47,274 nucleotides of DNA from Lentimicrobiaceae bacterium (lineage in GTDB: Bacteria; Bacteroidota; Bacteroidia; Bacteroidales; JAGNHN01): NCBI GenBank assembly GCA_018001695.1, contig JAGNHN010000028.1:1-47274 (forward strand). The letters run 5' to 3'. Of this stretch, positions 4,631 to 25,637 are shown one piece after another (within the stretch, counting starts at the first letter, position 1; every line of letters begins with the position of its first letter). The notes under the pieces are model-generated. The model saw nothing but the letters and a program-made list of their open reading frames with translations. It searched no databases and had not been told where the DNA came from. The position numbers and the translations under genes are program-made.

Positions 4631-4674
4631 GTGCGTAGCGTGGACGCTACGCACAGCATCTGTGACTTGTTAAC
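4631..4674 (+). repeat. REP-like palindromic element, copy 2
   Basis: The perfect 10-bp stem GTGCGTAGCG with CGCTACGCAC surrounds a TGGA loop. The same conserved tail as copy 1 follows. The tail supplies the TAA stop codon (4672-4670) of the large minus-strand gene, so this hairpin also forms the first structure in that gene's 3' untranslated region. Confidence 0.75.
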
Positions 4675-8143: not shown

Positions 8144-9799
<1,656 letters not shown>

Positions 9800-9850
9800 T
9801 AACCATGAACATCATTCTCCGGTAAAGGGATCATCCCACCTGCCGGATTA

Positions 9851-9886
9851 AAACCAGTAGTTGCGCCTGCAGCTACTGGTTTTTTT
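9851..9886. terminator. Bidirectional intrinsic terminator
   Basis: AAACCAGTAG (9851-9860) pairs perfectly with CTACTGGTTT (9873-9882), followed by a T-run on the plus strand. The minus strand also has a short T-run after the stem. It serves gdhA and the convergent polysaccharide operon, whose last stop codon lies in the right arm. Confidence 0.85.
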
Positions 9887-11120
9887 GATATAGAACCACA
9901 TTAAAAAAGGCGTAAAAGACGACCCCCGCCTGGGTTTCGAGCATAGATTCAAACAACAGATTGAAGCCCAGTAATATCAGGAAAACAAAATAAGGAAAGT
10001 TGTTCTGCCGGTAGGCCTGCAAAGCAGGAAGGAGGAGGATGAGGATGAGGACAAGGAGCCCGATGACGCCCAGTGCTACCGTGGTTTGAAGGTATTGGTT
10101 ATGGGCATTCAACCGCTGCTCTGAGGCTGCCTTCATTCCTTTCTTTTCGTACTCGGCCATCAGCACATCTTTGACATCCCCTGTCCCGGCACCGGTCAGG
10201 AAATGCTCCCAGGCAAGCCTCAGGCCCGCCTGCCATATCAGGATCCGCTCAGCCGTACCTTCTGTATCGTCTTTCTTTACCTCATCATGGGCCTCCATCA
10301 CAGCCGAAGCTGTCTTGAGGCGGAGTACTGAATACGGAAAAGCATTGAGCATCAGCAGAAGAAAGGTTATCGACAATAAAAATCCGAGGATGCCTTCCAC
10401 CATTAGTTTTTGCCTGATAATCAAATACATCATACTGATAACCAATGTGATTACAAGCCCAAGTATGCCGGCTTTGGAGCTCAGTAAGACGATGAAAACC
10501 ATGAACAATGCCAGAAGCAGGATGAGAAAAATCCTGAATGTCTTGGTCAGCAAGCTTTTATGCTCAACCAGAATAATGGTCACGAGGGCGATGGCCAAAT
10601 TGAGATAAAGCGCCAGGTAGGAAGGATGGTGGGAATAAGATAATCCTGTGTAGAAAAAGCTCATGATATCCCCTGACTGCTGCCACATCCAAAACGCCCT
10701 GCCGAGTCCAAACAAGAGGGAGGACAGGCATCCGCCGATGAAGGCGAACCAGACACGGATCATCCACTTTTCTTCAAGCGTGCGCGGATCCAGGGTAACA
10801 AAAATCAATGGAAAGATGAGGAGAGAGGCTTTTACCTCCAGATCGAAGAGACCGGACCTGATATTGTTGGTATTGATCATCCCGATCAGGTGTATAAGGT
10901 ATAACACAGCAAACATCAGGATGGTGGCCCGATGACGGGAAGTGATGACAGCCTGCGGCAGTCGCAGGAACTGTCCACTCAACAACCACCTAAGTATCAA
11001 CATACTAATCAAAACAGGAATACCCTGTTTATACAGGGGCAAAAGAAAAGCTATCCCCATAAGCAGGTAGCGGTCGAGCTGTAGCAACGAGGTAGACCTG
11101 TTTTGCCAGAAAGATTTCAT
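9873..11120 (-). CDS. O-antigen ligase/polymerase family membrane protein
   Basis: A 415-residue polytopic inner-membrane protein with about ten to twelve hydrophobic segments. A large periplasmic loop holds AHDEVKKDDTEGTAERILIW and the family hallmark NAHNQYLQTTVALG. These features place it in the Wzy_C/WaaL superfamily, which either polymerises O-units or joins polysaccharide to lipid A core or to another acceptor. Sequence alone does not separate ligase from polymerase. It is the last gene of the polysaccharide array, 27 nt after a glycosyltransferase gene. Confidence 0.85.
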   Translation of the reverse strand: MKSFWQNRSTSLLQLDRYLLMGIAFLLPLYKQGIPVLISMLILRWLLSGQFLRLPQAVITSRHRATILMFAVLYLIHLIGMINTNNIRSGLFDLEVKASLLIFPLIFVTLDPRTLEEKWMIRVWFAFIGGCLSSLLFGLGRAFWMWQQSGDIMSFFYTGLSYSHHPSYLALYLNLAIALVTIILVEHKSLLTKTFRIFLILLLALFMVFIVLLSSKAGILGLVITLVISMMYLIIRQKLMVEGILGFLLSITFLLLMLNAFPYSVLRLKTASAVMEAHDEVKKDDTEGTAERILIWQAGLRLAWEHFLTGAGTGDVKDVLMAEYEKKGMKAASEQRLNAHNQYLQTTVALGVIGLLVLILILLLPALQAYRQNNFPYFVFLILLGFNLLFESMLETQAGVVFYAFFNVVLYQKNQ

Positions 11121-11147
11121 ACAGGTAAAGATAGGAACTGTATTTGT

Positions 11148-12386
11148 TTAAGGATGATGATCTGTCTGAACGATCCGTAAGAATTGTGCTGCAAGAACGC
11201 GGTAATCATGCTGCGACGCGACAAACGCACTTCCTTTCCTGCCCATCTCCAGCCGCGCTGCTTCAGTCATATTCATGATCTGGGAGATGGCGTCACGAAT
11301 GCTCAGGGGGTCCTGAGGTGGGATACTGATGCCACAGCCGGCCTCTCCAACAAGGTCGTTACCACTTCTGATGGCATAGATCACGGGCTTTTCGGCCATC
11401 ATATAGTCGAATAGCTTGTTCGGGCTCACCCCAAACCGGAAGAGAGGTTGATCCTGCAGTCCAATGTATAAGGCATCCATACGGGAGAGCAATGCCGGAA
11501 CCTGCTTCTTTGGAACCGGAGGCAGGAAGAAAACCTGCGACAATCCTTTATCCGCTGCCTGTCGGATAAGCCTCTCCTTTTCGGGGCCTTTTCCGGCCAG
11601 GACGAAGGCCACCTGTTGCATGCCGGTCTGACTGGCTGTCAGGATGAAAGATTCGAGCGCATTGGCCACTCCATGTGCTCCGGCATATCCAACGATGAAG
11701 GCGTACTGTTGCCGGATCGCATCCAGCTGCGCCTTCAGGTCCGGGTCCAGGGGTGTGACATCCTTCCATTCTTCCATATTCACACCGTTGGGGATGTGGT
11801 GCCAACGCTCCGGCTTCAGACCACGCCCCTGCATATGCGGTAGTGTTGCCGGAAGCAGTGAGACGGTGTAATCAGCACGCTGATAGGCATCATCTTCCGC
11901 CCGCTGTGCTGCCATGATGAAGGGGTGCCATCTGGAATACCCACCCAATTCCATGGGCGACAGTGGCCATAGGTCATGTACTTCATACACCAGCCGGCAT
12001 GCAGCTTTGCGGGCGATGCGTGCGGCGAACCAGACATCGAATGGGTAGGTGGAAGAGGCAATGACCAGGTCGGGACGTACTTCCTTCACCAGGCGTCTGG
12101 TGTAAAAGAACAGTCGCCCAAGAAAAACCAGAATATTCAAGATCCTGCCCAGGCTGTTGCCATGATATGCCGGTGTTTTCAACCAGATGTATGAGATCCC
12201 TTCATGCTTTTCTCTATGGAATGCTTGGGTTGTTTCAGGCTGGCCTGTGCGCACATGGGCATAGGAGGCTGCTACGATACAGACTTCATGCCCCATCCGG
12301 GCCCATTCACGGGCCAGGTAGTAAGGACGGTACTCCATCCCCAGACGCTCCGATCCGGCATAGTGATTGATCAGCAGGATTCTCAT
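11148..12386 (-). CDS. GT4-family glycosyltransferase (WbuB-like)
   Basis: A 412-residue GT-B enzyme expected to add a sugar from a nucleotide sugar to the growing lipid-linked repeat unit at the cytoplasmic face. The N-terminal strand MRILLINHYAG, the YEVHDLWP segment, HIPNGV near the hinge and the C-terminal GVSPNKLFDYM donor-site motif are typical of the WbuB-like branch. A longer frame starting at 12467 is rejected. The ATG at 12386 overlaps the upstream stop by four bases (ATGA), which fits the pattern throughout the operon. Confidence 0.88.
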   Translation of the reverse strand: MRILLINHYAGSERLGMEYRPYYLAREWARMGHEVCIVAASYAHVRTGQPETTQAFHREKHEGISYIWLKTPAYHGNSLGRILNILVFLGRLFFYTRRLVKEVRPDLVIASSTYPFDVWFAARIARKAACRLVYEVHDLWPLSPMELGGYSRWHPFIMAAQRAEDDAYQRADYTVSLLPATLPHMQGRGLKPERWHHIPNGVNMEEWKDVTPLDPDLKAQLDAIRQQYAFIVGYAGAHGVANALESFILTASQTGMQQVAFVLAGKGPEKERLIRQAADKGLSQVFFLPPVPKKQVPALLSRMDALYIGLQDQPLFRFGVSPNKLFDYMMAEKPVIYAIRSGNDLVGEAGCGISIPPQDPLSIRDAISQIMNMTEAARLEMGRKGSAFVASQHDYRVLAAQFLRIVQTDHHP

Positions 12387-13513
12387 ACTTCCTTTTCTTT
12401 GATGCCGGTTGCTCCGGATGTCAGGGCAGCATACAATTCCAGCAAAGCATCTTTCTCGGCTTCCCAATGATAACGTCCCATAACAGCTTCACGACCATGG
12501 CGTCCCATCTGACCGGCCCGTTCCGGATGGGTCATCAGGTACTGGATGGCGGTTGCGATCTCTTCCGGACAATGTGGATCGACACAGATGCCGCAATCCG
12601 CTTCGCTGATGATCTCCTTCCACAGGGGGAAGGCTGACGCTATGACGGGGATACCGGAGGCCATATATTCGAACATTTTCACCGGCAGGGAGGTTAAAAA
12701 ATTGGGTGACGGCAGCAGGGTTACCATACCTGCCAGGCATTCCGGCAGGAGATTACTGACCTCTTCCCTGTCCAGAAATCCCAGTTCGTCGACATATGCC
12801 CATTCAGGCATGCTGCGCAACTCATCTCTCAGTTCAGGAGGTGAATATGTGCCCGCAAGGGCAAGCCTCACACCGGCCAGGGGCAGGCTTTTCATCAAGG
12901 GGATAATCCCCCTGACCTTGAAGATTCCACCAATGTAGCATACCCTGTCCTGCTTGCTGCGCATTTCCGGTACCGGCTGAAATTCACTAAGCAGGGGGAG
13001 GTTACGTACGAGGACAATCGGTAGCTCTGGCTGCCTAAGGCTCTGGCCAATGGAGGGGGTAGCCACTACCACGGCATCATAACGGCGTAGCCATCTATGC
13101 TGCAGCCAGGCTACCCAACGGGCAGCCGGTATCCGCAGCCAGGACGGAATATAATGCTTGGCCATGATTTGAAGCGGCAGGTCCTCGTGGGCATCAAAGA
13201 TCACATGTTTCCCTTTGCGCTTCAACCACAGGCCGCATAAGATCAGTTCCGGGTCATGTATATGATAAATATTTACATCTAAACGGCGTGCTTTCCGGTA
13301 GATCATCCATGATCCAAACAGCATGCGCTTCATCCTGCCAAATCCGGGCTTCATGGCCGATAATACACGAACACCTTGATATTCAAATGACTCATCACAG
13401 GGTGCTAATATGGTGACATCATAGCCAGCGGCCGCCAGGGATGCTGCTTCCTTATGCAGGATGCGGACATCTGTAGCAGAATGTACTGTGGTCATATGAC
13501 ATACCCTGATCAT
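12383..13513 (-). CDS. GT4-family glycosyltransferase
   Basis: A 376-residue GT-B enzyme. Early residues include HSATDVRILHKEAASLAAAG, a pattern common to GT4 enzymes of exopolysaccharide loci. HIHDPEL and FDAHEDLP lie in the N-terminal domain, and the C-terminal domain has KMFEYMASGIPVIAS with the donor-binding glutamate. Sugar specificity cannot be read from sequence. It overlaps both neighbouring genes by four bases, which suggests translational coupling. Confidence 0.88.
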   Translation of the reverse strand: MIRVCHMTTVHSATDVRILHKEAASLAAAGYDVTILAPCDESFEYQGVRVLSAMKPGFGRMKRMLFGSWMIYRKARRLDVNIYHIHDPELILCGLWLKRKGKHVIFDAHEDLPLQIMAKHYIPSWLRIPAARWVAWLQHRWLRRYDAVVVATPSIGQSLRQPELPIVLVRNLPLLSEFQPVPEMRSKQDRVCYIGGIFKVRGIIPLMKSLPLAGVRLALAGTYSPPELRDELRSMPEWAYVDELGFLDREEVSNLLPECLAGMVTLLPSPNFLTSLPVKMFEYMASGIPVIASAFPLWKEIISEADCGICVDPHCPEEIATAIQYLMTHPERAGQMGRHGREAVMGRYHWEAEKDALLELYAALTSGATGIKEKEV

Positions 13514-14553
13514 GGCACCAGGAGTCTTTGATAGATATCGAGAAATCGCTGCCGATTGGTATCCCGCATGGCTTTCTTCCGGATCAGGTCAAGGTTGGTC
13601 TCCATTAGTTGCGTGTAGTCCAGATCCAGTGCCTGCTGGATAATATTGGCACCCAGGTCAGTGGCAACAATACCGTTATGTCCGTGCTGTATCCATTCCC
13701 GGTTGGAGGGAAGATCCGACACGATGGGGCGGCAACCTGCAGCCATGGCTTCGAGCAGGCTAATGGCTGTGGCATCACTTTCAGGAACGGAGATATACAC
13801 AGCAGCCCTGGCGTAATAGGACAAATTGGTGGGAGCATCCACGAACCCAACGAAGCGGGTTTGTGATGAGATGCCCAGTGCCTTCGCCAGTTCTTTAAGC
13901 CGGGGCGTATCGTACCCTTCACCAGCGACAACCAATTGCCATGTGTCGTCCTGGCAGTCGTCCAGGAACCGCTTAAATGCCTTCAGGACGGCATCAATCC
14001 TGTAGAGCTCCTTATGGAGGCGGTTGCTGTATACCAGATTCTCTTTCGGGCCTGTCTGCGGTAAAGCAGGCAGGCCGAAGTTAACCGTGTCGACCTTCAG
14101 CTCGCATGGGCTGGCCAGTTCCTTCATGACAGCCGCCAGGTAATGTGAGTCGGCTGTGCAGTAATCAGTCTTGCGCAGGATATACCTGGCCATTGCGCGA
14201 TATAGCCATCCCTTTCCTGGAACCTGTAGAATATCACTGCCCCAGGCGGTCAATACGACCGGTATGCGGGCCGGCATGGCAAGAAAGGCATACAAAGCAT
14301 GGGTTCCCGCCTGATGGATGTGGATGACATCAGGCCTGAAATGCCTTATGGCTTTACGAAACCTTAGAATTGTTCCAGGGATAAGTGAAGGATTTTTCAA
14401 AGACATGTTGATTTCTGTGACGGGGATATCTCCCCATCGCACAGAGCCAAGGCTGGTGATGACACCGGTCTCACTGAAATGCTCCCGCACCAGGTGATAA
14501 TAATTCACCGTATGCATGGAGTCGGTACCAATAATCAGGAGCCGGGGTTTCAT
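13510..14553 (-). CDS. GT4-family glycosyltransferase
   Basis: A 347-residue GT-B enzyme. HIHQAGTHALYAF and VLTAWGSDIL lie in the acceptor domain, VAGEGYDTPRLKELA at the start of the donor domain, and PESDATAISLLEAMAAG in the nucleotide-sugar site with the usual catalytic-site glutamate. It follows the deacetylase-like gene by 16 nt and overlaps the next glycosyltransferase by four. It is the first of three consecutive GT4 genes, which suggests at least three glycosidic bonds are made by this locus. Confidence 0.88.
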   Translation of the reverse strand: MKPRLLIIGTDSMHTVNYYHLVREHFSETGVITSLGSVRWGDIPVTEINMSLKNPSLIPGTILRFRKAIRHFRPDVIHIHQAGTHALYAFLAMPARIPVVLTAWGSDILQVPGKGWLYRAMARYILRKTDYCTADSHYLAAVMKELASPCELKVDTVNFGLPALPQTGPKENLVYSNRLHKELYRIDAVLKAFKRFLDDCQDDTWQLVVAGEGYDTPRLKELAKALGISSQTRFVGFVDAPTNLSYYARAAVYISVPESDATAISLLEAMAAGCRPIVSDLPSNREWIQHGHNGIVATDLGANIIQQALDLDYTQLMETNLDLIRKKAMRDTNRQRFLDIYQRLLVP

Positions 14554-14569
14554 CTTTCTGGTATTACGT

Positions 14570-15376
14570 CTATAAAGGGATCTGGTACATGAGGCCTTTG
14601 CCCAACCTTTCCATGTCCTGGTTCAGGTTATGGGAAGCATTGGCACCCCAATGCCTGGGATGTGTCAGGAGGCAAATGACCGGCATACCCTGTTCCATGG
14701 CTGCCTGCGGGCTCAGAGGATGATAACGCTCCGGGTGAGGCCGGTCGCTGATGTACACATTGATGGCTTCCAGCAGCCAGGGATCATATGCCTCAGCCAC
14801 CAATGAAAACGAGGCGCGTATGCTTTCATCCACGAGAATGTGGTTGGGAACATCCAGCATCCTGTTGACAAAGTCGCCATGACTTGCGATGGTCCGGACA
14901 GGTTTGGACAAGCGGGCGTTGAAGGCTTCCAGGTTCTTCCGGAAAAGCGCCCTCATGGGCTCCATATGCGTCATTATCTCCTCCCTGTTCCGGATCCGCA
15001 TTCTATAGGCATATGAGGCTACTTCCTCATAATGGTAACCGATCTCACTCCCTGACCGCAAAATCTGGTCCATCAATCCAGGTTCGGCGGTTGAAAGCCT
15101 GAAGTAATAGGTTGCAGGGATGCCCAGATCACTTTCTATTCTATTCCATTCAGCGGCTCTCAGCAGATCCGTATCAATGTCATGCCGGTTGATAAACACC
15201 TTGTCAGGGAGTTTTCCCTCCTGATATCCCTCCACGAAGGACAGCATGGTCATATGGGAATATCCCAGCTCTTTAGCCTTGATATTCAACTGTCTGTACT
15301 CCTCCATGCGGGATGGCATGACATAATCGGAGTACAGGCGGTTGAAAAACTGATTCAATCTTTCTGTAATGTCCAT
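14570..15376 (-). CDS. Polysaccharide deacetylase-like protein
   Basis: A 268-residue protein without a signal peptide. It has the motif order of the NodB/CE4 superfamily: NRHDIDTD near residue 63 (metal-binding Asp), ATYYFRLS, EIGYHYEE, ASHGDF and a late THPRHWG. Classical CE4 enzymes remove N- or O-acetyl groups from sugars with a bound metal. The lack of a signal peptide suggests it acts on a cytoplasmic sugar or lipid-linked intermediate, which is inference. Proteins of this type are frequent in surface-polysaccharide loci. The start overlaps the previous gene by 22 nt. Confidence 0.75.
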   Translation of the reverse strand: MDITERLNQFFNRLYSDYVMPSRMEEYRQLNIKAKELGYSHMTMLSFVEGYQEGKLPDKVFINRHDIDTDLLRAAEWNRIESDLGIPATYYFRLSTAEPGLMDQILRSGSEIGYHYEEVASYAYRMRIRNREEIMTHMEPMRALFRKNLEAFNARLSKPVRTIASHGDFVNRMLDVPNHILVDESIRASFSLVAEAYDPWLLEAINVYISDRPHPERYHPLSPQAAMEQGMPVICLLTHPRHWGANASHNLNQDMERLGKGLMYQIPL

Positions 15377-16056
15377 GTTACCCTATAGGATTTAAAACCG
15401 AGTCTCTTCTTAAACAACCGCAATCCCGCTGTGGCGCCCGGAAAAGTATCATACATCATGAACCTGACGCCAGGAAGATGATCATAAACCTTAGCTACAG
15501 CGGATGTCAGGAGCAGGTACATGATTCCGTTCCGGAGGTGGTTTGCATGTCCCAGTATACGGTTCACCAGGACTAACTCACCCGCCACCTGCAGCCAAAG
15601 GTAGGCAATCAGTTTCTCTTCGAAAAAAACACCATAATAGAGATGTGATGGCCGATCAGGGTATTGGATGTCCATTCCGGTATAGGTATCATCCATTGGC
15701 TTACCCTGTCTGTCTGTCGCAGAGCTATTTATTTCCCGAATATCTGCAAGCGAATTCCATGGATTCATCTTCCGGAAGACATATCCAGCCCTGCCTGCCT
15801 TGCGGGTGTAATAAATGGCCGAGTTCTTGCCGCCATATTGGTCTGCATAGCCCTGAAAACCATCATAATCTTTTAAAGGAATCAATGCCACGCCCCTTGT
15901 TTTATTTCTGATAACCCACCATTTCGGATGCCGGCTATTGAGCGCGGTGTAGATTCTGCTACTGTCCTCGTTCACAGGCCCCAGGCTGACCCGCACATGA
16001 GGAGAACAAAGCAATTCCCTCATTATCAAAATTATATCTTTAAAAAACTCAGGCAT
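15355..16056 (-). CDS. GNAT-like acyltransferase of the polysaccharide locus
   Basis: A 233-residue protein whose C-terminal half (HLYYGVFFEEKLIAYLWL through LFKKRLGFKSYRV) fits the GNAT fold, ending in the usual LGF segment. The N-terminal half is not recognised. It probably transfers an acyl or aminoacyl group to a sugar or related intermediate; the substrate is unknown. I choose the ATG at 16056, which overlaps the flippase stop by eight bases. In-frame ATGs at 16083 and 16062 lie deeper within the upstream gene. Confidence 0.6.
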   Translation of the reverse strand: MPEFFKDIILIMRELLCSPHVRVSLGPVNEDSSRIYTALNSRHPKWWVIRNKTRGVALIPLKDYDGFQGYADQYGGKNSAIYYTRKAGRAGYVFRKMNPWNSLADIREINSSATDRQGKPMDDTYTGMDIQYPDRPSHLYYGVFFEEKLIAYLWLQVAGELVLVNRILGHANHLRNGIMYLLLTSAVAKVYDHLPGVRFMMYDTFPGATAGLRLFKKRLGFKSYRVTWTLQKD

Positions 16057-17335
16057 AGGCATCCGGTACCGGTTTACTTGCAAGGCGGTAATACCATCCT
16101 AACACCAACAAAGATAGGATTGCGGAGGCAATGGCCATCAGTGTAAAACCCACGATAAAGCTATCCACATACCATCCGTAGAGCAAGGCTAAAGTACGCA
16201 TTACCAAATCAATAAGCGTAACAGCCAGGGCCTGGGGTTGCTTGTTATATAAAATGGGCAGGTTGGAAAAAGGGGAAATCAGGTAATTGAGGAAGATCCA
16301 TGGTAGAAGAACCTGGGCAATCTTACCTGATTCACGGAAATCTTCTGAGAAAACAAAGGCGAAGATATCAGGCCCAAACAGCAGGATGAGCAGGAAGACC
16401 GGTGAAGCAACGGCTGCCATATTCCTGTGTATGCGCCACATCAGGGGTCTTACGGATTGATTCTCCCGGTTGATGGTAGCAGCGCGCTCATAGAACACCT
16501 GGCCCACAGCGGATCCTATCATGCTCACCGGGACTTTAAGGGCCCTGAATGCCCATGAATACCAACCGAGTACTATATTGCCAAATGCTATGCTAATGAC
16601 GAATACGATACCATTATCGAGAAGAGAATCAATGAGCGCATGCGGTGAATTAACATAGGCAAACGACTTATAACGTTTCATTTGCTGCCGCATCTCACCT
16701 CTATTAAATGCCTTCAGCCAAGGCAGGGGATGGCGGACGAAGACCCAGGCCAGGACCGCTGCTGCGACAAGCAATCCGAGCAGGTATCCGCTTATCAAAC
16801 CCAGGGCGCCCAATCCGAACAGACCGAGGATAAGACTGACAAGACCGATGGACATAGATTGTGCAATCCGGGCGGCGGCATTGCGGCGAAAAGTACGGTG
16901 CCTTGTACTCCAGTAATTGAAAGACTGGTAAACCCCGGTAAACAGAACTGCCAGTGGCAGGAAACCCAGGAAAGGACGCAAGGGTTCTGCATCAAAGAGC
17001 CGGACCATTGCATCTCCCAGGAATAAGACGAGTAGCAAACTCAGCAGGGCCATGGCCACCGCAACTACCAGGGAGAGGTTAAGAACCTGTCTGGCTTCTT
17101 CATGGCGGGCGGGCAATACGATGGCAAACTCGTAACGCAGGCCGGCGATCACTCCGAAGATGGCGATGGCCGACATAAAGAGGGAGAGGATGCCAAAATC
17201 AGCGGGGTCATAGAGACGTGCCAGGAACGGGGCAACCAGGAACGGGACAAGTTGTGCCAGGAAAGTCCCTGTAAACAGGGTCAGAATATGCCCTGCAAAG
17301 GTGGAACCCCGTATGGATGTCAACAGATGCTTCAT
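16049..17335 (-). CDS. Wzx-like polysaccharide flippase
   Basis: A 428-residue polytopic membrane protein of the MOP exporter superfamily, with around twelve hydrophobic segments. The N-terminal stretch LVPFLVAPFLARLYDPADFG is the signature of O-antigen translocases. The expected role is to flip lipid-linked oligosaccharide units from the cytoplasmic to the periplasmic face, where the ligase/polymerase-type protein would use them. Its presence indicates Wzx-dependent rather than ABC-transporter-dependent export. It overlaps the upstream aminotransferase gene by four bases. Confidence 0.9.
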   Translation of the reverse strand: MKHLLTSIRGSTFAGHILTLFTGTFLAQLVPFLVAPFLARLYDPADFGILSLFMSAIAIFGVIAGLRYEFAIVLPARHEEARQVLNLSLVVAVAMALLSLLLVLFLGDAMVRLFDAEPLRPFLGFLPLAVLFTGVYQSFNYWSTRHRTFRRNAAARIAQSMSIGLVSLILGLFGLGALGLISGYLLGLLVAAAVLAWVFVRHPLPWLKAFNRGEMRQQMKRYKSFAYVNSPHALIDSLLDNGIVFVISIAFGNIVLGWYSWAFRALKVPVSMIGSAVGQVFYERAATINRENQSVRPLMWRIHRNMAAVASPVFLLILLFGPDIFAFVFSEDFRESGKIAQVLLPWIFLNYLISPFSNLPILYNKQPQALAVTLIDLVMRTLALLYGWYVDSFIVGFTLMAIASAILSLLVLGWYYRLASKPVPDAYA

Positions 17336-18606
17336 GATCCTCCGTCATTCGTACCATGAACTTCGTGAGAATTCTCCCATTCCAGGACGCTGAGAAATGC
17401 AGCACGGATATTATGCAAAGATTTCTTATTCAACCGGATATGAATCCCCAACGGGAGATTCATCATCTGTTGTGCATAGGCTTCTCCGATACGGCACGAA
17501 CCACTCTGGTAGCAGTAGGCATAACTCCCCAATGGGTGAACCACATCGTTGAACCACTCACCCGGAAGGATGCCTGCCTTCCTGAGTTTCAGGGAGAGTT
17601 GACGCCCGCGGTCATCATGTCTGGACCAAGGCAGCAGAACCGGGTAACGCAGCAGCACGGCGCCCTCCGCCGGGAATAGCCCGATACCGGGTATCCCACT
17701 CAACGCAGCAGTATATAAATCAGTGAGGTTTTTGATATGCCTGACCACTGCATCATAATCTTTGAGCTGCGCCATCACCCACCTTGCCTGAATGGTGCTG
17801 AGCCGCAGCGGATACGACGGCGGCAATTCACCTTCCAGCTCACCGGAAGCTGTAGCGCCCAGCCATCCAAGGCTTTTCAAAACACGCATCCCTGCACCCT
17901 TGAGAAAGACAAGGCGTGGATATGAAGTGATAAGGTGGACCAATAAGGTGATCCACTGCCGGAACAGTGGAAAACCGCGAACGGGTTCAAGCATAAGATA
18001 CGCATCCCTCGTCTTCTCAAGCAAAGCGTTATTATTCACCACAAGAACACCTCCCAGTCCGGACGTAACCGGCTTGGAAAATTCAAAGCTAAAGAAAGCA
18101 GCATCTCCCAGGGTGCCTGTCTTCTTTCCTTCCTTCGATATTGAAGCAATCGTATGCGCAGCATCTTCGATGACCAGGATACCGGGATGCCTGAGTTTGA
18201 GTTCCTGGACGTCTCCGAATGGGATACCATAATTATGTGGTATGACGATGAGGCGGGTGCGGTCACTGACTTTTTCCGAAATCTCCTCTATCCCCGGGTT
18301 TACCTCTCCTTCGGCCAGGTCGGCATAAATTACAGTAGCTCCTGTATACTTTACTGCGTTGGTCACGACCACACAGGTATATGCCGGGACAATCACTTCA
18401 TCTCCCTGGCTGATGCCGGCTGCTTTCATAAACAGGTACAGCCCCATTCTTCCCGCAGCCATCGGAAAGATCGTCTGCTCGTCAACCCCTAAGCGGGCTG
18501 CAAAAGCCCGGCTCAGGGCTTTCGTGTCATCCCTGCCGGCAGGGATGGAGGCAAGAAAAAACTGGCTTAGCTTTAATGCATTACACGTATAGGCCGTGCG
18601 TATCAT
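17332..18606 (-). CDS. DegT/DnrJ/EryC1/StrS-family aminotransferase
   Basis: A 424-residue PLP enzyme of the sugar aminotransferase family. The probable Schiff-base lysine is K178 in SFEFSKPVTSGLGG, and D148 in VIEDAAH contacts the pyridine nitrogen. The typical family motif has GEGG; here it is GLGG. Such enzymes aminate 3- or 4-keto nucleotide sugars. The dehydratase that would make the keto-sugar is not seen in the window. Some members act on non-sugar substrates, so the exact product is open. Confidence 0.87.
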   Translation of the reverse strand: MIRTAYTCNALKLSQFFLASIPAGRDDTKALSRAFAARLGVDEQTIFPMAAGRMGLYLFMKAAGISQGDEVIVPAYTCVVVTNAVKYTGATVIYADLAEGEVNPGIEEISEKVSDRTRLIVIPHNYGIPFGDVQELKLRHPGILVIEDAAHTIASISKEGKKTGTLGDAAFFSFEFSKPVTSGLGGVLVVNNNALLEKTRDAYLMLEPVRGFPLFRQWITLLVHLITSYPRLVFLKGAGMRVLKSLGWLGATASGELEGELPPSYPLRLSTIQARWVMAQLKDYDAVVRHIKNLTDLYTAALSGIPGIGLFPAEGAVLLRYPVLLPWSRHDDRGRQLSLKLRKAGILPGEWFNDVVHPLGSYAYCYQSGSCRIGEAYAQQMMNLPLGIHIRLNKKSLHNIRAAFLSVLEWENSHEVHGTNDGGS

Positions 18607-19121
18607 AGGGCTTTGACTTGTCGTGCCGGCGAGCCGGCATATAAATACCCGCTCACAAGGTGTCCTGATGCCACTGAATTGGCCGCCAGCACCACATGGT
18701 CATCGATCCTGGTTCCGGGCAGTATGATGCAATGACTGCCAATGAACACATTGGAACCGATGTGAATATCCGCATCCATATAGCTGTTGGCAAATGCCTG
18801 TGAGGTATCCTGGATATCATGTGAATGGCAGAACATGGCAGTAAAGGGTCCAACGGCGACATGATCGCCAATATCAAGGGTATTATCCTGGATCAACAGG
18901 TAAACATAAGAAGACAGGTGGGAGTTGTTCCCCATCCTGAACTGCCCCCTTGTGCCGGTAAGCACCGAGGCATGCTGGTATAGAACAGCATCATGTCCCA
19001 ACCTTACATTTCGGGGATGTGTGATCTCAACACCATGAAACACGCGGCTACCAGGAAGAGCGCGCATTCCTTTTAGCTGAAGCAACCTGGTTCTGAGCAA
19101 TCTGATGAATCGCTTTCTCAT
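18603..19121 (-). CDS. Left-handed beta-helix (hexapeptide) acetyltransferase
   Basis: A 172-residue protein made almost entirely of hexapeptide repeats. The CHSHDIQD segment is the equivalent of the catalytic His loop in the WcaF/NodL/maltose acetyltransferase group, and the C-terminal YAGSPARQVKAL is the usual end. It probably O- or N-acetylates a sugar of the polysaccharide. It lies between the wecB-like and aminotransferase genes with four-base overlaps on both sides. Confidence 0.87.
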   Translation of the reverse strand: MRKRFIRLLRTRLLQLKGMRALPGSRVFHGVEITHPRNVRLGHDAVLYQHASVLTGTRGQFRMGNNSHLSSYVYLLIQDNTLDIGDHVAVGPFTAMFCHSHDIQDTSQAFANSYMDADIHIGSNVFIGSHCIILPGTRIDDHVVLAANSVASGHLVSGYLYAGSPARQVKAL

Positions 19122-20188
19122 CCTCCAGTATGATTGAGTAGGTCGACAATACTGACGGCGGCATCACCATGCCCATAGAGCGGGATGTCAAAATTATAGG
19201 TTCCTTTCCACTGCTTATGAGCCGCTTCGAGAATCTCCTCTGTGCCAGTTCCAGCCACCACATTGAAACCATGATCCACCAGTTCTGTCCATTCGGTCTC
19301 ATCGCGCAAGGTCACACAGGGGCGATGATGAAAGAAGGCTTCCTTCTGCAGTCCACCGCTATCTGTCAGTATCAGCTCACTTTGCCTGATCAGGTAAATC
19401 ATTTCCAGAAATCCGACAGGTTCAATGATATGCACACCTGAAGGCACCGTTATATTGTATCGTCGGAGGTACTGGGCCGTCCGGGGATGCAGTGGAAGAA
19501 CGATCTCCCGCCATGTGGCCATTTCTGCCAATGCTTCAAAGACAGATTTTAAACGGTCCGGGTCATCAGTATTTTCAGCTCTGTGCAGGGTAGCCAGGAA
19601 GAAAGTCTGGGGCAGAACGACCATGGGAGGCTGTGCGAAATCCTTGTAATGCAAGGCCACATCCATCATCACATCTCCGGTAAGGGCCAGCTGACATGAA
19701 AACTGCGCAAATCCCTCGTTCATGAGGTTTTGAATGGCCGTTTCAGTAGGGCAGCATAACAAGGTGGAAACACGGTCGGTCAGGATGCGGTTGATTTCCT
19801 CGGGCATACGCAGGTTGAAGGAGCGCAGACCGGCTTCGACGTGGGCTACAGGGATATCCATCTTGCGGGCCGCAAGCGCACCGGCCAGGGTAGAATTTGT
19901 ATCTCCATAAACCAGAACCCAGTCTGGCTTTTCGATCATCAGGACCTTTTCGACACCTTCCAGCATTCTTCCTGTCATTGCACCATGGGGCGCATTACTG
20001 ACACCCAGGTGATGGGCCGGACTTGGGATATCCAGCTGCTCGAAGAATACCTGCGACATATTATCATCGAAGTGCTGGCCGGTATGGATCACGACCTCCT
20101 GCATCCCAGGCTGCCGGCCAATGGCGCGGCTTACGACGGAAGCCTTGATAAATTGCGGCCTGGCACCGATCACAGTCACTATCTTCAT
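19118..20188 (-). CDS. wecB: UDP-N-acetylglucosamine 2-epimerase (non-hydrolysing)
   Basis: A 356-residue GT-B-like enzyme converting UDP-GlcNAc to UDP-ManNAc. Diagnostic motifs are GARPQFIKA at the N terminus, HTGQHFDDNMS, VYGDTNSTLAGALAA, HVEAGLRSFN, MPEEINR and LTDSGGLQKEAFF. A UDP-ManNAc dehydrogenase, which often accompanies it, is not in the window, so ManNAc may be used directly or modified by the aminotransferase and acetyltransferase encoded next door. Four-base overlaps join it to both neighbours. Confidence 0.93.
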   Translation of the reverse strand: MKIVTVIGARPQFIKASVVSRAIGRQPGMQEVVIHTGQHFDDNMSQVFFEQLDIPSPAHHLGVSNAPHGAMTGRMLEGVEKVLMIEKPDWVLVYGDTNSTLAGALAARKMDIPVAHVEAGLRSFNLRMPEEINRILTDRVSTLLCCPTETAIQNLMNEGFAQFSCQLALTGDVMMDVALHYKDFAQPPMVVLPQTFFLATLHRAENTDDPDRLKSVFEALAEMATWREIVLPLHPRTAQYLRRYNITVPSGVHIIEPVGFLEMIYLIRQSELILTDSGGLQKEAFFHHRPCVTLRDETEWTELVDHGFNVVAGTGTEEILEAAHKQWKGTYNFDIPLYGHGDAAVSIVDLLNHTGG

Positions 20189-21144
20189 GGGCGGTTGTTG
20201 TCTTGTTTATTAAACCAATCCCTGAACTGCTGCAGGCCTGCCCCTATGGGTGTATGCGGCCGGTAGTTCAACAGATCACGGGCTTTATCAATATCAGCCC
20301 AGGTCCTGGGCAGGTCACCCTTCACTTCAGACTGAAAATCAAGGATGGCCTTCCGTTGAAAAGTCTCTTCAAGCAAATGAACCAACTCCAACAAGCTAAC
20401 CATGTGGTGATTACCCAGGTTGATGATCTCGTAATCTGATTTATCGTAGATCATGGCATTGCGAACGCCATGCACGATATCGTCGACGTAGGTGTAATCA
20501 CGTTGGGTATTTCCCGTTCCGAATAATGGCAGGGGTCTGCCTTGTGTGATGCAATGAGAAAACTTATGAATGGCCAGGTCTGGGCGCTGCCTGGGTCCGT
20601 AGACAGTAAAGAAGCGCAGGGCGATGAAACGGATCCCAAACAACTGACTGTATACATGCCCCAAAAGCTCTCCGCTGACCTTGGTACTGGCATACGGACT
20701 CACCGGCTTCAGCACACAGGCGTCTTCTTTCCATGGTAAAGCATTATTAAGGCCATAGACACTGGAGGAAGAGGCAAATACAAACTGCCGGGTTTTCCAT
20801 TTTCTTGCCAGTTCGAGGACATTCTGTGTTCCTCTCACGTTCACATCCTGATATCCGTTGGGATCAGCAATGGAAGGTCTTACACCAGCCTTGGCCGCCA
20901 TATGCACGATAACGTCATAGCCACCTTCCAGATGCATCAGGGCTTCCCTGTCCCGGATATCATAGGTATAAAGACGGTAATGAGGATGTTTGAGGTGTGC
21001 ATCGATGTTCTGATGCTTGATCGCTACATTATAGTAAGGGTCGAAATTGTCGATACCATCCACCCACCAGCCATCTTCCAGCAGAGCATCCACCAGGTGA
21101 CTTCCTATGAAGCCTGCTGCGCCGGTGACCAGTACCTTTCTCAT
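20185..21144 (-). CDS. NAD-dependent nucleotide-sugar epimerase (UDP-glucuronate 4-epimerase-like)
   Basis: A 319-residue extended SDR enzyme. The Rossmann motif GAAGFIGSH, the SSSSVYG segment and the YASTK catalytic Tyr-Lys pair are intact. GIDNFDPYYNVAIK and QRDYTYVDDIV resemble the UDP-glucuronate 4-epimerase (CapI-like) group, giving UDP-galacturonate; UDP-GlcNAc or UDP-Glc 4-epimerase activity is a possible alternative. Its ATG overlaps the stop of the DUF4340 gene by four bases, so it is directly coupled to the gld block. Confidence 0.88.
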   Translation of the reverse strand: MRKVLVTGAAGFIGSHLVDALLEDGWWVDGIDNFDPYYNVAIKHQNIDAHLKHPHYRLYTYDIRDREALMHLEGGYDVIVHMAAKAGVRPSIADPNGYQDVNVRGTQNVLELARKWKTRQFVFASSSSVYGLNNALPWKEDACVLKPVSPYASTKVSGELLGHVYSQLFGIRFIALRFFTVYGPRQRPDLAIHKFSHCITQGRPLPLFGTGNTQRDYTYVDDIVHGVRNAMIYDKSDYEIINLGNHHMVSLLELVHLLEETFQRKAILDFQSEVKGDLPRTWADIDKARDLLNYRPHTPIGAGLQQFRDWFNKQDNNRP

Positions 21145-22250
21145 GGAAGCTCATAGATATATGATCCCTCCTCAGGAAGAGGAGTTCCTTCAAAGAACCA
21201 GGCAACAGGACGTGTGACCCGGTCAAAAACAAAGAACTGGACGAGTACAAAATCGCGTCCATCGTTCACAAAAGCATACATCCTGTCCCGGTCATAGAAC
21301 ACAGGAAATCCTTCCAGGTCAAATTCTTCTTCCTCCTGCAGCATCCGCCGGTGTGTAACAACCGTATTCTCGTTACCCTGCCTGTCCGTGACGGTGATAC
21401 GGTACAAATAGGGGCTATAGCGCACCGAATCAATGAAGGCGCTGTCTCTTTCATTCAGCAGGACTTCAAATTTAATATCGGAAAACGTTGTCAGATACGT
21501 AAGGATGCGCATGCTATCGATGGCGGGCAGGTTTAGTTCGGGGTCATGCGGGATGATATTGAAGCGCCGGTTATCGACATTCTCGATGGTATAAGACTGC
21601 TCCGGGTGTCCGTTTACCTCCAGCTTAACCGATGCGATATCCAGTACATTGTTTGCAAAGATGGTATGGTCACGCCAATCGTTTTCCATGGTTGAAAAAC
21701 GTGTAGATATAAAGCCTCTAAAGCCAGGAATATAGATAATATAAGGCCGGTCGGCGCCTTCCATCAGCATAAAGGTACCCATATTATCCTGGGTATTATC
21801 ACCGACATAAAACGTACGAACGCGCTTTTCATAGGGAAAGAGCCGTAGGATCTGACCCAGGCGAAGGCGGTAGCTTTGCTCGTAAACTTCCACCTTCACT
21901 CCGGTTGCTGCAAGCCGGGCAATGACGCTGTTGTGCGCTTCCATGGGGACCGGGCTGCTGACAGCCATCCTGAGCAGGGTGGAGAGCAGCTGGTCCACAG
22001 CCTGGGCACGTGCAGTGTGCGTTCCATTCAAGCGCCAACCCTGTATGGGTTCCTTTTCCAGCAGTATGGTCCGGCCTTCCTTATCGGCTAAAAAGATCCT
22101 GGTAATACCGGCCGTATCTGTGACAGCGAACTGGCTGGCTTTCTGCCTGAGCGTCGAGGTTGAGGGCCGGCTGACAAGAATTCCGAGCAGCGCCAGGATC
22201 ACCAGGGCTAAGGCTAGTAAAAGTCTGTTCTTACGTTTATTATTCATCAT
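21141..22250 (-). CDS. DUF4340-type membrane-anchored protein next to gldFG
   Basis: A 369-residue protein with one N-terminal transmembrane anchor (LLLALALVILALLGILV) and a large, probably extracytoplasmic, beta-rich part that fits the DUF4340 family. Such proteins commonly follow GldG-like subunits and are thought to be accessory to the ABC transporter; the exact role is not known. It lies 24 nt after gldG and overlaps the epimerase gene by four bases. Two adjacent ATGs (22250 and 22247) are equally possible starts. Confidence 0.75.
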   Translation of the reverse strand: MMNNKRKNRLLLALALVILALLGILVSRPSTSTLRQKASQFAVTDTAGITRIFLADKEGRTILLEKEPIQGWRLNGTHTARAQAVDQLLSTLLRMAVSSPVPMEAHNSVIARLAATGVKVEVYEQSYRLRLGQILRLFPYEKRVRTFYVGDNTQDNMGTFMLMEGADRPYIIYIPGFRGFISTRFSTMENDWRDHTIFANNVLDIASVKLEVNGHPEQSYTIENVDNRRFNIIPHDPELNLPAIDSMRILTYLTTFSDIKFEVLLNERDSAFIDSVRYSPYLYRITVTDRQGNENTVVTHRRMLQEEEEFDLEGFPVFYDRDRMYAFVNDGRDFVLVQFFVFDRVTRPVAWFFEGTPLPEEGSYIYELP

Positions 22251-22274
22251 GTACCTTTCATTGATACGCAGGAA

Positions 22275-24062
22275 TCAGCGCGAATACCTGCGCTTGCGCA
22301 AAAACCCGGCTCCCAGTCCAAACAGGATGACCAGCAGCACCGGGATGAGCACATTTATAACCTGCCAGCGATTCTTCTCAGCGTTGACTCTGGCCTGGTC
22401 CAACGTCCTGAGCCTGAGCTCCCTGGAACGTATCTGTATTAAGCCGCTTTCGTCCGTCAGATAATTGACCAGGTTCAGTAACAAATCCCTGTTTCCCAGG
22501 GTTTCACCGGTATATTGGTCATACCCCAACGGCAAGGGCGTCCTGGTTCCAGGGCTTACCTGGTTACTGAAGACATCCCCATCAGACAGGACAATCATGC
22601 GTGTTGGCAGGCTCATATCCCGGTAGCCTATACCCGGATCTGCCTCAATTTCAGGTGGTATCCTGTTCCTGAACAAAGAGGTGAATTCTCCCTCGAGCAA
22701 GACGGCCACTGCCCTGGGCCCATCCGGAAACATCTTCTGGTCAGGTTCCTTCTTCAATATCTCGAGCGTGACATAAGCCGGCGATGGTGACACGCGGGTA
22801 TATGCTGATGTCTCCAGCAATACTGTTTTCCTGACGCCTTCAGACTCCACGGTGTCGATACTGGAAACGAACTCAAAGCGTGAGGCGTTCAGGTTCACCA
22901 CTGCCGGATGATTGGTTTGAGAAGCAATCAGCGGCATATAGTACCAGGGGTAGAACTCAAACTGCGGTTGATCACCAATCTGGCCTGTTTTAACAGGAAT
23001 GGGCATGGCGCGCATATCCATCAGCAGATCAGGGTTGACCCTGACGCCATACCTGAACAACATGTCGCCAAGATTGACATCCCGGGCAACGCTCACCATT
23101 TCAGGCTGGGCCTGCAGGCTGTCCATATCAGCTACCACGGCGTCGATCATCCACAATACCTTACCGCCCCGCATGATAAACTGATCGAGGATAAATTTAT
23201 CCTTCTCACTCCAGGCCTGTGTTGGTTTGGGAATGATGACCACAGCATATTTATTCCGGACCCGCACCTCGGTAGAATCCTCGTTATAGACTCGCTCAGC
23301 CAGACTACCCAGACTTTCACCCAACACGATCCTTTCAACAGAATAAAACTCATTTAAGGCTGTCATGCCATCCCAGAGCCTCGTATCCGGCAGCTGACCA
23401 TAGCCTTCCAAAACGGCAAGCTTGGGCTTCAATCCCTGGCTGAGCTTACGGATCGCATTGGCCAGGTTATACTCCAATGACTTGACCGCGTTGTTTAATA
23501 CCTGCTCAGGGGCGACACCGATCTGAGATTGGAGCAAGGGGAGCGCAACCTCCCGGCCCTTATATGTTACAAGTGCTCCCGGGAATATGATACGCTGGGC
23601 CGACCCGTCTTTCTCCCTTACCTGCAGGGTGGTCGGCACCAAACCCTTTTCTGACAACTGCCTGTAGACCTGATTTCTGATCTTGACATCATTTGAAGCA
23701 GAGGGGTTAATAAACTCATACTCTATTTTATCACTTACAGCCCTGAATTCATCCAGCATCTCTCGTGTGGCACGGCTGAGCTGCTTGAATCCTGCCGGAA
23801 AATCCCCTTCAAGGTAAACCTTGAAGAAGACAACATCATCCAGGTCGCGGATCAGTTGCCGTGTTGGTTTTGATAGCGTATAACGCTTCTCAGCTGTCAG
23901 GTCCAGGCGTGTATAGAACCGCTGTCCGAGCAGGTTGACGAGAACAACCACCAGCACAATGAAAGCAAAACGCAGGAGGTCGAAGCGTTTGAGGCTCTTT
24001 CTAGATGCTTGTGCCTTCCCGTTGACCGGTGGCACTTTATTATCTTCTTTCTTGCCTACCAT
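22275..24062 (-). CDS. gldG: Gliding-associated ABC transporter auxiliary subunit GldG
   Basis: A 595-residue protein with a transmembrane segment near residue 30-50, a long extracytoplasmic domain, and a second transmembrane segment close to the C terminus before a basic tail (RKRRYSR). The motif RLDLTAEKRYTLSKPTRQL is characteristic of GldG. In Flavobacterium johnsoniae, GldF and GldG form an ABC transporter with GldA that is needed for gliding. Homologues are also found in non-gliding Bacteroidota, so gliding is not proven here. No gldA ATPase gene is present in the window. It overlaps gldF by seven bases. Confidence 0.9.
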   Translation of the reverse strand: MVGKKEDNKVPPVNGKAQASRKSLKRFDLLRFAFIVLVVVLVNLLGQRFYTRLDLTAEKRYTLSKPTRQLIRDLDDVVFFKVYLEGDFPAGFKQLSRATREMLDEFRAVSDKIEYEFINPSASNDVKIRNQVYRQLSEKGLVPTTLQVREKDGSAQRIIFPGALVTYKGREVALPLLQSQIGVAPEQVLNNAVKSLEYNLANAIRKLSQGLKPKLAVLEGYGQLPDTRLWDGMTALNEFYSVERIVLGESLGSLAERVYNEDSTEVRVRNKYAVVIIPKPTQAWSEKDKFILDQFIMRGGKVLWMIDAVVADMDSLQAQPEMVSVARDVNLGDMLFRYGVRVNPDLLMDMRAMPIPVKTGQIGDQPQFEFYPWYYMPLIASQTNHPAVVNLNASRFEFVSSIDTVESEGVRKTVLLETSAYTRVSPSPAYVTLEILKKEPDQKMFPDGPRAVAVLLEGEFTSLFRNRIPPEIEADPGIGYRDMSLPTRMIVLSDGDVFSNQVSPGTRTPLPLGYDQYTGETLGNRDLLLNLVNYLTDESGLIQIRSRELRLRTLDQARVNAEKNRWQVINVLIPVLLVILFGLGAGFLRKRRYSR

Positions 24063-24787
24063 TTTCTACTCTCCAGGGATAATCTTGTTAAAGCGAGGAA
24101 TACCAGGATGAGGCTGATGTAGTAGATAACATCCCGGCTATCAATTACACCGCGACTCATGGAAACATAGTGATGCCTGATACCCAAGGATTTGACAAAC
24201 AGATCGGCCTGTCCCAGCCACTCAAAAGATGAAAGAAGCTCGAATCCGGTGTAGAAGAAAACAGACAATACAGCGGCCAGTATAAAGGAGATGATCTGGT
24301 TGTCGGTGATAGAACTGGCGAAGATTCCAATAGACAGGAATGCTCCACCCAGGAAGAGCAGACCGATATAGCTACCCCACATACCGCCCGTATCGATATT
24401 GCCTTTGGGCAGCCCAAGCTGGTGGGCAGAAAAGTAGAAGACCAGGGTTGGCAACAACGAAAACAGTAGCAGGGCCAGGCTTGCTGCATATTTAGCCATG
24501 ATGATCTGCACATCGGTCAATGGCTTGGTAAGCAGCATCTCGATGGTCCCTGCTCTTTTTTCTTCCGCAAAACTGCGCATGGTGATGGCAGGAATCAGGA
24601 ACAGAAAGATCCAGGGAGCCAGGATGAAGAGGCCGTTGATATTGGCATAACCGTAGTCCAGAATATTCAGGTCGCCCGGAAACACCCATAGGAACAGGCC
24701 GGTCAGGGCCAGAAAAACGACAATCACCACATAGCCGATAAGTGAATGTAAAAAACTGTTCAGTTCCTTCAGAAACAGGGTGTACAT
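24056..24787 (-). CDS. gldF: Gliding-associated ABC transporter permease GldF
   Basis: A 243-residue ABC-2 type permease with six hydrophobic segments. The sequence RSFAEEKRAGTIEMLLTKPL is the conserved cytoplasmic motif of the family. It forms the membrane channel of the GldFG transporter. It is the first gene of the fourteen-gene minus-strand array. A TATTTTTG promoter box lies about 30 nt upstream. Confidence 0.92.
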   Translation of the reverse strand: MYTLFLKELNSFLHSLIGYVVIVVFLALTGLFLWVFPGDLNILDYGYANINGLFILAPWIFLFLIPAITMRSFAEEKRAGTIEMLLTKPLTDVQIIMAKYAASLALLLFSLLPTLVFYFSAHQLGLPKGNIDTGGMWGSYIGLLFLGGAFLSIGIFASSITDNQIISFILAAVLSVFFYTGFELLSSFEWLGQADLFVKSLGIRHHYVSMSRGVIDSRDVIYYISLILVFLALTRLSLESRKW

Positions 24788-24816: not shown

Positions 24817-24824
24817 CAAAAATA
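24817..24824 (-). promoter_or_regulatory. Bacteroidota -7 box upstream of gldF
   Basis: The minus strand reads TATTTTTG, matching TAnnTTTG. It is the best-placed promoter candidate for the whole gldF-to-ligase array. No good -33 element is seen at 19-20 nt. Confidence 0.5.
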
Positions 24825-24857: not shown

Positions 24858-25637
24858 TTAGTCCAGCACGATATGCACCGGATCATCCATCCGAAGTCCA
24901 AGCAAGCTGCTGGCTTTGCCCCTGTTCATGGCGATCTCCAGATAACCACTCGAGCTGAATAGGGCGAGCATCTCCCCTTCCGGAACATCACTGTAGGACT
25001 TTGAGATATGGCTGATCTTATAGCGGGAGCTTCTGAAAGCGATGTGAAAGGCATGCTTGCCTACCATTTTTCTGAAATGTTCCTGATTGATATTGACGAA
25101 GACATTCTCGTAGGAATCGACGTAAATCACCTTGGCTTTGATGATATTACCTTCGAACACCGGCTTAAAGCTGAGTTTTTCGTTGATGGTAGTGCGAACG
25201 GTGCCCAGTGAGGCCATATCCCGTCCTTCTGCGAGGTGAATCGCTGCCTTTGCAAATACATCGCGGGAAGAAAAAGTAAAAAAGTCTGTATCCTGCATGA
25301 TGTCGAGCTCAACGATCAGGCTGGGGGGTTCTTCAAATATCAGACTAAAAACACCATTGTCGGCACCAATGAAGTAATGGCCACGATACCGTATGGCTAC
25401 ATGTGGCGTATTGATAGAAGCGTCAGTATTGACCCCGACGATGTGGATACTATCCCCAGGAAAGCCGGCGAAGGCGTTCTTCAGGATGAAGGCAGCCTGC
25501 AGGATGTCAAACGCCGGTATCTGATGTGAGATATCCACGATTACAACATCCTTTAAGCCTTGCAACAAGCGTCCTTTCACAGCACCGGCATAGTGGTCCT
25601 TGGTGCCCCAGTCAGATGTCAGTGTAATGATGGCCAT
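24858..25637 (-). CDS. SAM hydroxide adenosyltransferase family protein
   Basis: A 259-residue protein of the DUF62/SAM hydrolase family, which uses water (hydroxide) to split S-adenosylmethionine into adenosine and methionine and is related to fluorinase. The N-terminal TLTSDWGTKDHYAGAVKG and the central GADNGVFSLIFEE are the family signatures. The C-terminal beta domain is present. The biological purpose of the activity is not settled. It has its own -7 box and a 70-nt gap to gldF. Confidence 0.88.
   Translation of the reverse strand: MAIITLTSDWGTKDHYAGAVKGRLLQGLKDVVIVDISHQIPAFDILQAAFILKNAFAGFPGDSIHIVGVNTDASINTPHVAIRYRGHYFIGADNGVFSLIFEEPPSLIVELDIMQDTDFFTFSSRDVFAKAAIHLAEGRDMASLGTVRTTINEKLSFKPVFEGNIIKAKVIYVDSYENVFVNINQEHFRKMVGKHAFHIAFRSSRYKISHISKSYSDVPEGEMLALFSSSGYLEIAMNRGKASSLLGLRMDDPVHIVLD

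Follow-up and report, generated by a model that had tools for sequence, protein, structure and literature searches.

The GldAFG proteins are essential for gliding in Flavobacterium johnsoniae, where they have been described without a clear function (PMC10202324). In Flavobacteriia, gldG is followed by dnaN, which has its own promoter (PMC5682007). Here we describe a 47,274-nucleotide stretch of DNA from a Lentimicrobiaceae bacterium (contig C30 of a 3.24-Mb genome that is 98% complete; hereafter, the window) in which gldF and gldG are followed instead by a DUF4340 gene and eleven polysaccharide genes. This arrangement is a recurrent variant of the gldFG locus in some uncultured Bacteroidota and, as far as our searches go, a previously unreported one: a limited search of the open literature returned no report of a gldFG-DUF4340-polysaccharide neighbourhood. 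The explanation we favour, to which we give about an even chance, is that two surface-building systems are co-expressed from one operon.

An initial annotation of this DNA had described fourteen genes running in a single direction from gldF to an O-antigen ligase/polymerase gene, and this is what we find: all fourteen lie on the minus strand, from 24787 (gldF) to 9873 (the Wzy_C gene). In the order in which the run would be read, the features of the locus and its borders are as follows.

24858..25637, minus strand: SAM hydroxide adenosyltransferase (Pfam SAM_HAT_N/C), co-directional, 70 nt upstream of gldF
24817..24824, minus strand: candidate promoter -7 box TATTTTTG (Bacteroidota consensus TAnnTTTG), its start 37 nt ahead of gldF
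24056..24787, minus strand: gldF, ABC permease (TIGR03518, 328.7 bits against a cut-off of 288.5)
22275..24062, minus strand: gldG, ABC auxiliary membrane protein (TIGR03521, 627.6 bits against a cut-off of 389.85; PF09822)
21141..22250, minus strand: DUF4340 protein, third of the gldFG trio (PF14238, above cut-off)
20185..21144, minus strand: SDR nucleotide-sugar epimerase/dehydratase (PF01370, PF16363)
19118..20188, minus strand: non-hydrolysing UDP-GlcNAc 2-epimerase, WecB family (TIGR00236, above cut-off)
18603..19121, minus strand: hexapeptide-repeat acetyltransferase (PF00132)
17332..18606, minus strand: DegT/DnrJ/EryC1 sugar aminotransferase (PF01041)
16049..17335, minus strand: Wzx-type oligosaccharide flippase (PF13440 and PF01943, above cut-off)
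15355..16056, minus strand: g9, unclassified, acyltransferase-like by eye (sequence reading only)
14570..15376, minus strand: g10, unclassified, deacetylase-like by eye (HDIDTD, ATYYF and EIGYH motifs; sequence reading only)
13510..14553, minus strand: GT4 glycosyltransferase (PF00534, PF13692)
12383..13513, minus strand: GT4 glycosyltransferase (PF13439, PF00534)
11148..12386, minus strand: GT4 glycosyltransferase, WcaI-like (PF13579, PF13439; the WcaI match is weak)
9873..11120, minus strand: Wzy_C O-antigen ligase/polymerase, the conserved final cassette gene (PF04932)
9850..9883, no strand assigned: symmetrical stem-loop of 15 pairs, candidate terminator between two converging genes
8447..9799, plus strand: glutamate dehydrogenase (GDH), convergent (PF00208), a recurrent exit neighbour of the cassette
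4670..8143, minus strand: PPDK_N-domain protein (PF01326), a recurrent second exit neighbour

Ten of the junctions within the run had been said to overlap, seven by 4 nt and one each by 7, 8 and 22 nt, and our recount, which uses ATG starts at 16056 (g9, after the flippase) and 12386 (the third glycosyltransferase), matches exactly. Writing overlaps as negative, the junctions are gldF/gldG -7, gldG/DUF4340 +24, DUF4340/epimerase -4, as had been claimed for the overlap of these two genes, epimerase/wecB -4, wecB/hexapeptide transferase -4, hexapeptide transferase/DegT -4, DegT/flippase -4, flippase/g9 -8, g9/g10 -22, g10/first glycosyltransferase +16, -4 at each of the two junctions between glycosyltransferases, and +27 between the last of these and Wzy. 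Translation may be linked across the overlaps; those of 4 nt are common in tight operons. The run is bordered upstream by the 70-nt gap to the SAM hydroxide adenosyltransferase gene, which adjoins gldF in many relatives and is probably either outside the operon or read through, and downstream by the 15-pair stem-loop before the convergent GDH gene. Neither g9 nor g10 had any Pfam or NCBIfam match. Base composition gives no sign of recent acquisition of the cassette, its G+C content (0.50-0.53) being equal to that of the flanks.

To ask how often this neighbourhood recurs, we classified the surroundings of GldG relatives at 160 loci, drawn from approximately 80 genomes of the same order and from 80 named contigs whose labels are mainly Bacteroidales, Marinilabiliales and unclassified Bacteroidetes, with some Flavobacteriales and Sphingobacteriales. 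A locus was scored as cassette-positive if a Wzx flippase and/or Wzy was encoded among the genes next after gldF-gldG-DUF4340 (the trio); presence or absence could be scored in 139 loci, and the other 21 were left unscored because many contigs are short. The commonest gene after the trio is dnaN (50 of 160 loci), and 125 of the 139 assessable loci have gldFG-DUF4340 and no cassette. Fourteen loci are cassette-positive (the window, L043, L044, L047, L048, L049, L054, L056, L058, L133, L135, L152, L156 and L178), spanning seven family codes and five named contigs of metagenome-assembled genomes, with the Wzy family present in 12 of them and only a flippase in the remaining 2. The neighbourhood thus co-occurs in relatives rather than being confined to one genome, a question that the initial annotation had raised, and a one-genome accident is ruled out by the same-genus genome together with 12 further loci. 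A search of viral contigs for GldG relatives gave none.

The same-genus genome (G001, locus L043) is the only other genome of the window's family among those compared. Its order is SAM_HAT, gldF, gldG, DUF4340, epimerase, flippase, ATP-grasp-like protein, GT4 and Wzy, with the epimerase, in the same position, 61% and the Wzy protein 49% identical to those of the window. The Wzy gene of L054 runs off the end of its contig, and L247 appears to be the overlapping other half, continuing into GDH and PPDK_N. A gene pair without Pfam matches, one member of which is ATP-grasp-like by eye, is common to the cassettes of two distant families (L043:7431-8477 and 9571-10839; L049:7151-8152 and 9246-10520). 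Five other loci (L046, L053, L057, L060 and L123) have a lone SDR epimerase gene right after DUF4340 and no further polysaccharide genes, and at L053 it overlaps the DUF4340 gene by 4 nt; such an epimerase may be a remnant, or else a partner of longer standing.

With only a few Wzy relatives per ~3.5 Mb, we estimate that a co-directional Wzy gene would lie within 15 kb of the trio by chance in well under 1% of genomes, a rough figure and not a test, as compared with the 9 of approximately 80 genomes of the order in which one was seen near the trio. As a control, the upstream side of the named loci has two remote Wzy matches (L171 and L173) versus five loci downstream, numbers too small to carry strength. 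All 14 cassette loci fall within one starred set of 76 GldG rows, a Bacteroidales-centred clade, in which they are not monophyletic. The GldG tree requires 8 changes for the 12-locus trait, at least 4 of them forced by starred branches, and 6 changes for all 14 loci with short contigs excluded; gain and loss of the cassette linkage are indistinguishable on this tree.

The initial annotation also held that the run is one operon, and its compact, co-directional layout makes a single transcription unit probable. Of 121 loci, 65 have the flavobacterial housekeeping promoter consensus TAnnTTTG (PMC9723704) no more than 70 nt from gldF, as compared with 4.5% of random windows. After DUF4340 the -7 motif is found at 2 of 18 polysaccharide junctions versus 22 of 45 dnaN junctions (Fisher p 0.009, kinship ignored), and the median gap at this point is 38 nt ahead of polysaccharide genes versus 105 nt ahead of dnaN, again with kinship ignored. 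One transcription unit is likely because the motif stands before gldF and is mostly absent at the junction of DUF4340 and cassette, and transcription from the gldF promoter would likely extend into the cassette. A scan for sigma-70-type promoters gave no excess over shuffled sequence, using a model that is unsuited to Bacteroidota.

The explanation that we favour would work as follows. From a promoter directly ahead of gldF, a single operon would be transcribed. GldF, GldG and the membrane-anchored DUF4340 protein, with a GldA encoded elsewhere, would form an ABC module in support of gliding and type IX secretion, and the last eleven genes would specify a Wzx/Wzy-type cassette whose products make nucleotide sugars, assemble a lipid-linked oligosaccharide and flip it, after which it would be polymerised or ligated to lipopolysaccharide (LPS). 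Joint expression would be expected because gliding and the cargo of the type IX secretion system (T9SS) depend on the outer surface, to whose construction both parts contribute.

The gliding half of this proposal draws on gene content. GldF and GldG exceed their NCBIfam equivalog cut-offs and are adjacent in the order gldF-gldG, while a GldA ATPase is encoded on contig C25 (TIGR03522, 409.3 bits, barely above the cut-off of 402.6). Genes for GldJ, GldL and PorU, the T9SS sortase, lie at other places in this genome and are present in the same-genus genome as well; PorU scores 1352 bits in both. By these genes the host would be a gliding organism, and GldA, GldJ, GldL and PorU look like the ordinary gliding and T9SS kit. 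Within the window, a large protein (42038-44926, minus strand) is likely T9SS cargo: it combines PKD domains and a choice-of-anchor L domain with a T9SS type B sorting domain.

The polysaccharide half has both a Wzx-type flippase (PF13440) and Wzy_C (PF04932) above cut-off at the same locus, together with three GT4 proteins, an epimerase, a WecB family enzyme, DegT and a hexapeptide transferase. No initiating sugar-phosphate transferase is encoded in the operon; three Bac_transf genes lie elsewhere in the genome and are not tied to the operon's glycan. With its own flippase and Wzy_C, and initiating transferases elsewhere, the glycan could take a normal exit without need of GldFG. There is likewise no ATPase for a Wzm/Wzt-type ABC glycan exporter among the fourteen genes, the best GldA being on another contig.

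These results bear on the proposal of the initial annotation that GldFG handles, or is regulated with, a secreted glycan. Co-regulation of GldFG and the cassette is possible. The other part, in which GldFG-DUF4340 (with GldA) would move or load the glycan or its lipid-linked form, is not supported, and we regard it as the least probable of the explanations weighed here. It draws on the adjacency and likely co-transcription of the genes, on the fact that GldAFG has no known substrate (PMC10202324), on the predicted membrane anchor and large folded modules of DUF4340, and on two genomes in which DUF4340 stays with Wzy clusters while gldG lies elsewhere. The cassette, however, brings a Wzx flippase and a Wzy_C protein of its own, so that the glycan would not be GldFG's load; 125 of 139 trio loci are cassette-free; the gliding and T9SS genes appear to be an ordinary kit; the glycan genes vary whereas GldFG does not; and we found no solved relative of DUF4340 or GldG that points to glycan transport.

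The two genomes just mentioned single out DUF4340. In G134 (L241) and G053 (L234) a DUF4340 gene stands beside a Wzy cluster, and gldG is on another contig with no adjacent DUF4340. At L241:2710-12719 the order DUF4340, flippase, transferases, Wzy, GDH and PPDK_N is kept throughout; at L234:4513-10229 the DUF4340 gene is beside a Wzy/glycosyltransferase cluster. The closest association with the cassette may consequently be that of DUF4340 and not of gldFG. That DUF4340, and through it GldAFG, acts directly on the lipid-linked or LPS-linked glycan (in placing, sensing or length control) is in our view highly improbable; if true, it would provide the first substrate for the GldAFG module. Literature on DUF4340 is scant, one report naming it among essential domains in Verrucomicrobium spinosum. 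Its predicted structure has two folded modules and, at the N terminus, a single membrane helix (predicted local distance difference test score, pLDDT, 92.8). Foldseek gave no match to this model at E 0.001, and the best VIA-align hit, a thioesterase-like protein (Z 5.7; root-mean-square deviation 3.8 over 108 residues), is within the range that the tool calls common; we therefore rejected the fold as a functional clue, the model being confident and without a clear solved-fold match. Sequence searches for solved-structure relatives of GldG and DUF4340 gave none that was convincing. Contig C56 begins with a second gldA-gldF-gldG-DUF4340 set, a paralogous one that is cut by the contig start (L013:1-3589), so DUF4340 accompanies gldFG in both copies; the start of contig C24 (L009/L014) is listed with C56 for this second set. 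The same-genus genome gave a single GldG match.

The presence of PorU, together with the anchoring of T9SS cargo to LPS in Porphyromonas gingivalis, makes a T9SS link worth testing. The glycan might be an LPS-type anchor for cargo of the T9SS sortase, so that the operon would join synthesis of this anchor to an ABC module that assists the T9SS. PorU reaches the same high score in both genomes of the genus, the LPS to which cargo is attached in P. gingivalis is the product of a Wzy/WaaL route (PMC13086638, PMC10202324), and the operon's last protein is of the ligase/polymerase family. The operon contains Wbp-type families (aminotransferase, hexapeptide transferase and 2-epimerase), yet a search confined to the operon for the A-LPS linking-sugar (Wbp) route found no dehydrogenase pair, leaving that route incomplete there, and many GldG loci have other neighbours. 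We consider this explanation unlikely.

The cassette occupies a slot between DUF4340 and a GDH gene in which the inner genes are probably exchanged between lineages and the last gene is kept: from locus to locus there are different flippases, transferases and sugar genes, but the flanks and the terminal Wzy_C are retained. Wzy_C in linked genomes is 39-49% identical to that of the window, with 60 invariant columns across nine rows. In a profile search it matched the solved polymerase/ligase 7tpg (1e-8) over a part with shared RxxIW and AHN motifs, and some relatives' cassettes hold a second polymerase-like protein, so a ligase role is plausible for the conserved Wzy_C. The Wzy_C tree was poorly resolved. 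GDH stands at the cassette exit in seven loci (the window, L049, L156, L178, L133, L152 and, by way of the contig join, L054). Among assessable loci, it lies downstream in 7 of 13 with a cassette as compared with 7 of 108 others; it is downstream of a cassette-free trio in eight loci, of which one could not be scored because its contig is short.

The main rival, the next most likely explanation after co-expression and a real if minority possibility, is that the slot is simply a convenient insertion site for exchangeable polysaccharide clusters, perhaps with a shared transcript and with no joint function. This would account for variable inner genes between constant flanks, for a slot that is empty or otherwise filled (L051, L062 and L072), for gldFG-DUF4340 lying mostly beside dnaN or other genes, and for Wzy-GDH-PPDK_N without gldFG at L245. 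At that locus (L245:6064-9582) the order is Wzy, a Wzz-like protein, GDH and PPDK_N, and the exit side thus exists apart from gliding genes. It accounts less readily for a cassette that is regularly on one side, co-directional, near DUF4340 and mostly without its own -7 motif, or for the two genomes, G134 and G053, in which DUF4340 alone has stayed with a Wzy cluster.

Several further points weigh against co-expression for a joint purpose. Adjacency by itself does not establish joint function. The promoter and gap counts take no account of kinship, and in a short gap there is little space for a motif. At L178 a -7 motif lies 33 nt ahead of the flippase gene within a 154-nt gap, so this cassette may have its own promoter. 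Close Wzy relatives occur in unlinked polysaccharide clusters of many gldG-bearing genomes, which also suits the insertion-site explanation. Finally, no covariation of GDH with the cassette was seen in tree-independent pairs, of which too few were informative.

A recurrent operon tying GldAFG to surface glycan synthesis offers a concrete hypothesis for the job of GldAFG, and lineages that naturally have or lack the linkage are available for testing it. The pairing of gldFG and cassette eases such testing and does not itself reveal the transporter's job. If the link is merely positional, what is described here is nonetheless a new slot that accommodates exchangeable polysaccharide cassettes.

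Elsewhere in the window, a Fic-family gene (46058-47128, plus strand) occupies one contig end, where a stretch has a low G+C content (0.35); G+C is likewise low (0.365) at the opposite end (1-2000).

Set beside described systems, the window genome resembles P. gingivalis, with its A-LPS/O-LPS pathway, in having PorU and an O-antigen ligase/polymerase family protein, and the window's glycan could be LPS-linked; it differs in that the operon's linking-sugar genes are incomplete and GldFG has no place in the P. gingivalis scheme as described. The cassette shares with Wzx/Wzy-dependent O-antigen or capsule loci of Bacteroidota, such as the polysaccharide loci of Bacteroides fragilis (PMC3090145), a flippase, glycosyltransferases, nucleotide-sugar genes, Wzy_C and inner genes that differ among strains or species. 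Compared with these loci, it has no Wzz or initiating transferase in the operon and is headed by gldF-gldG-DUF4340. This heading is closest to the gldF-gldG of Flavobacteriia (F. johnsoniae and F. psychrophilum), with which the window shares the same families in the same order, a GldA encoded elsewhere and the presence of other gliding genes.

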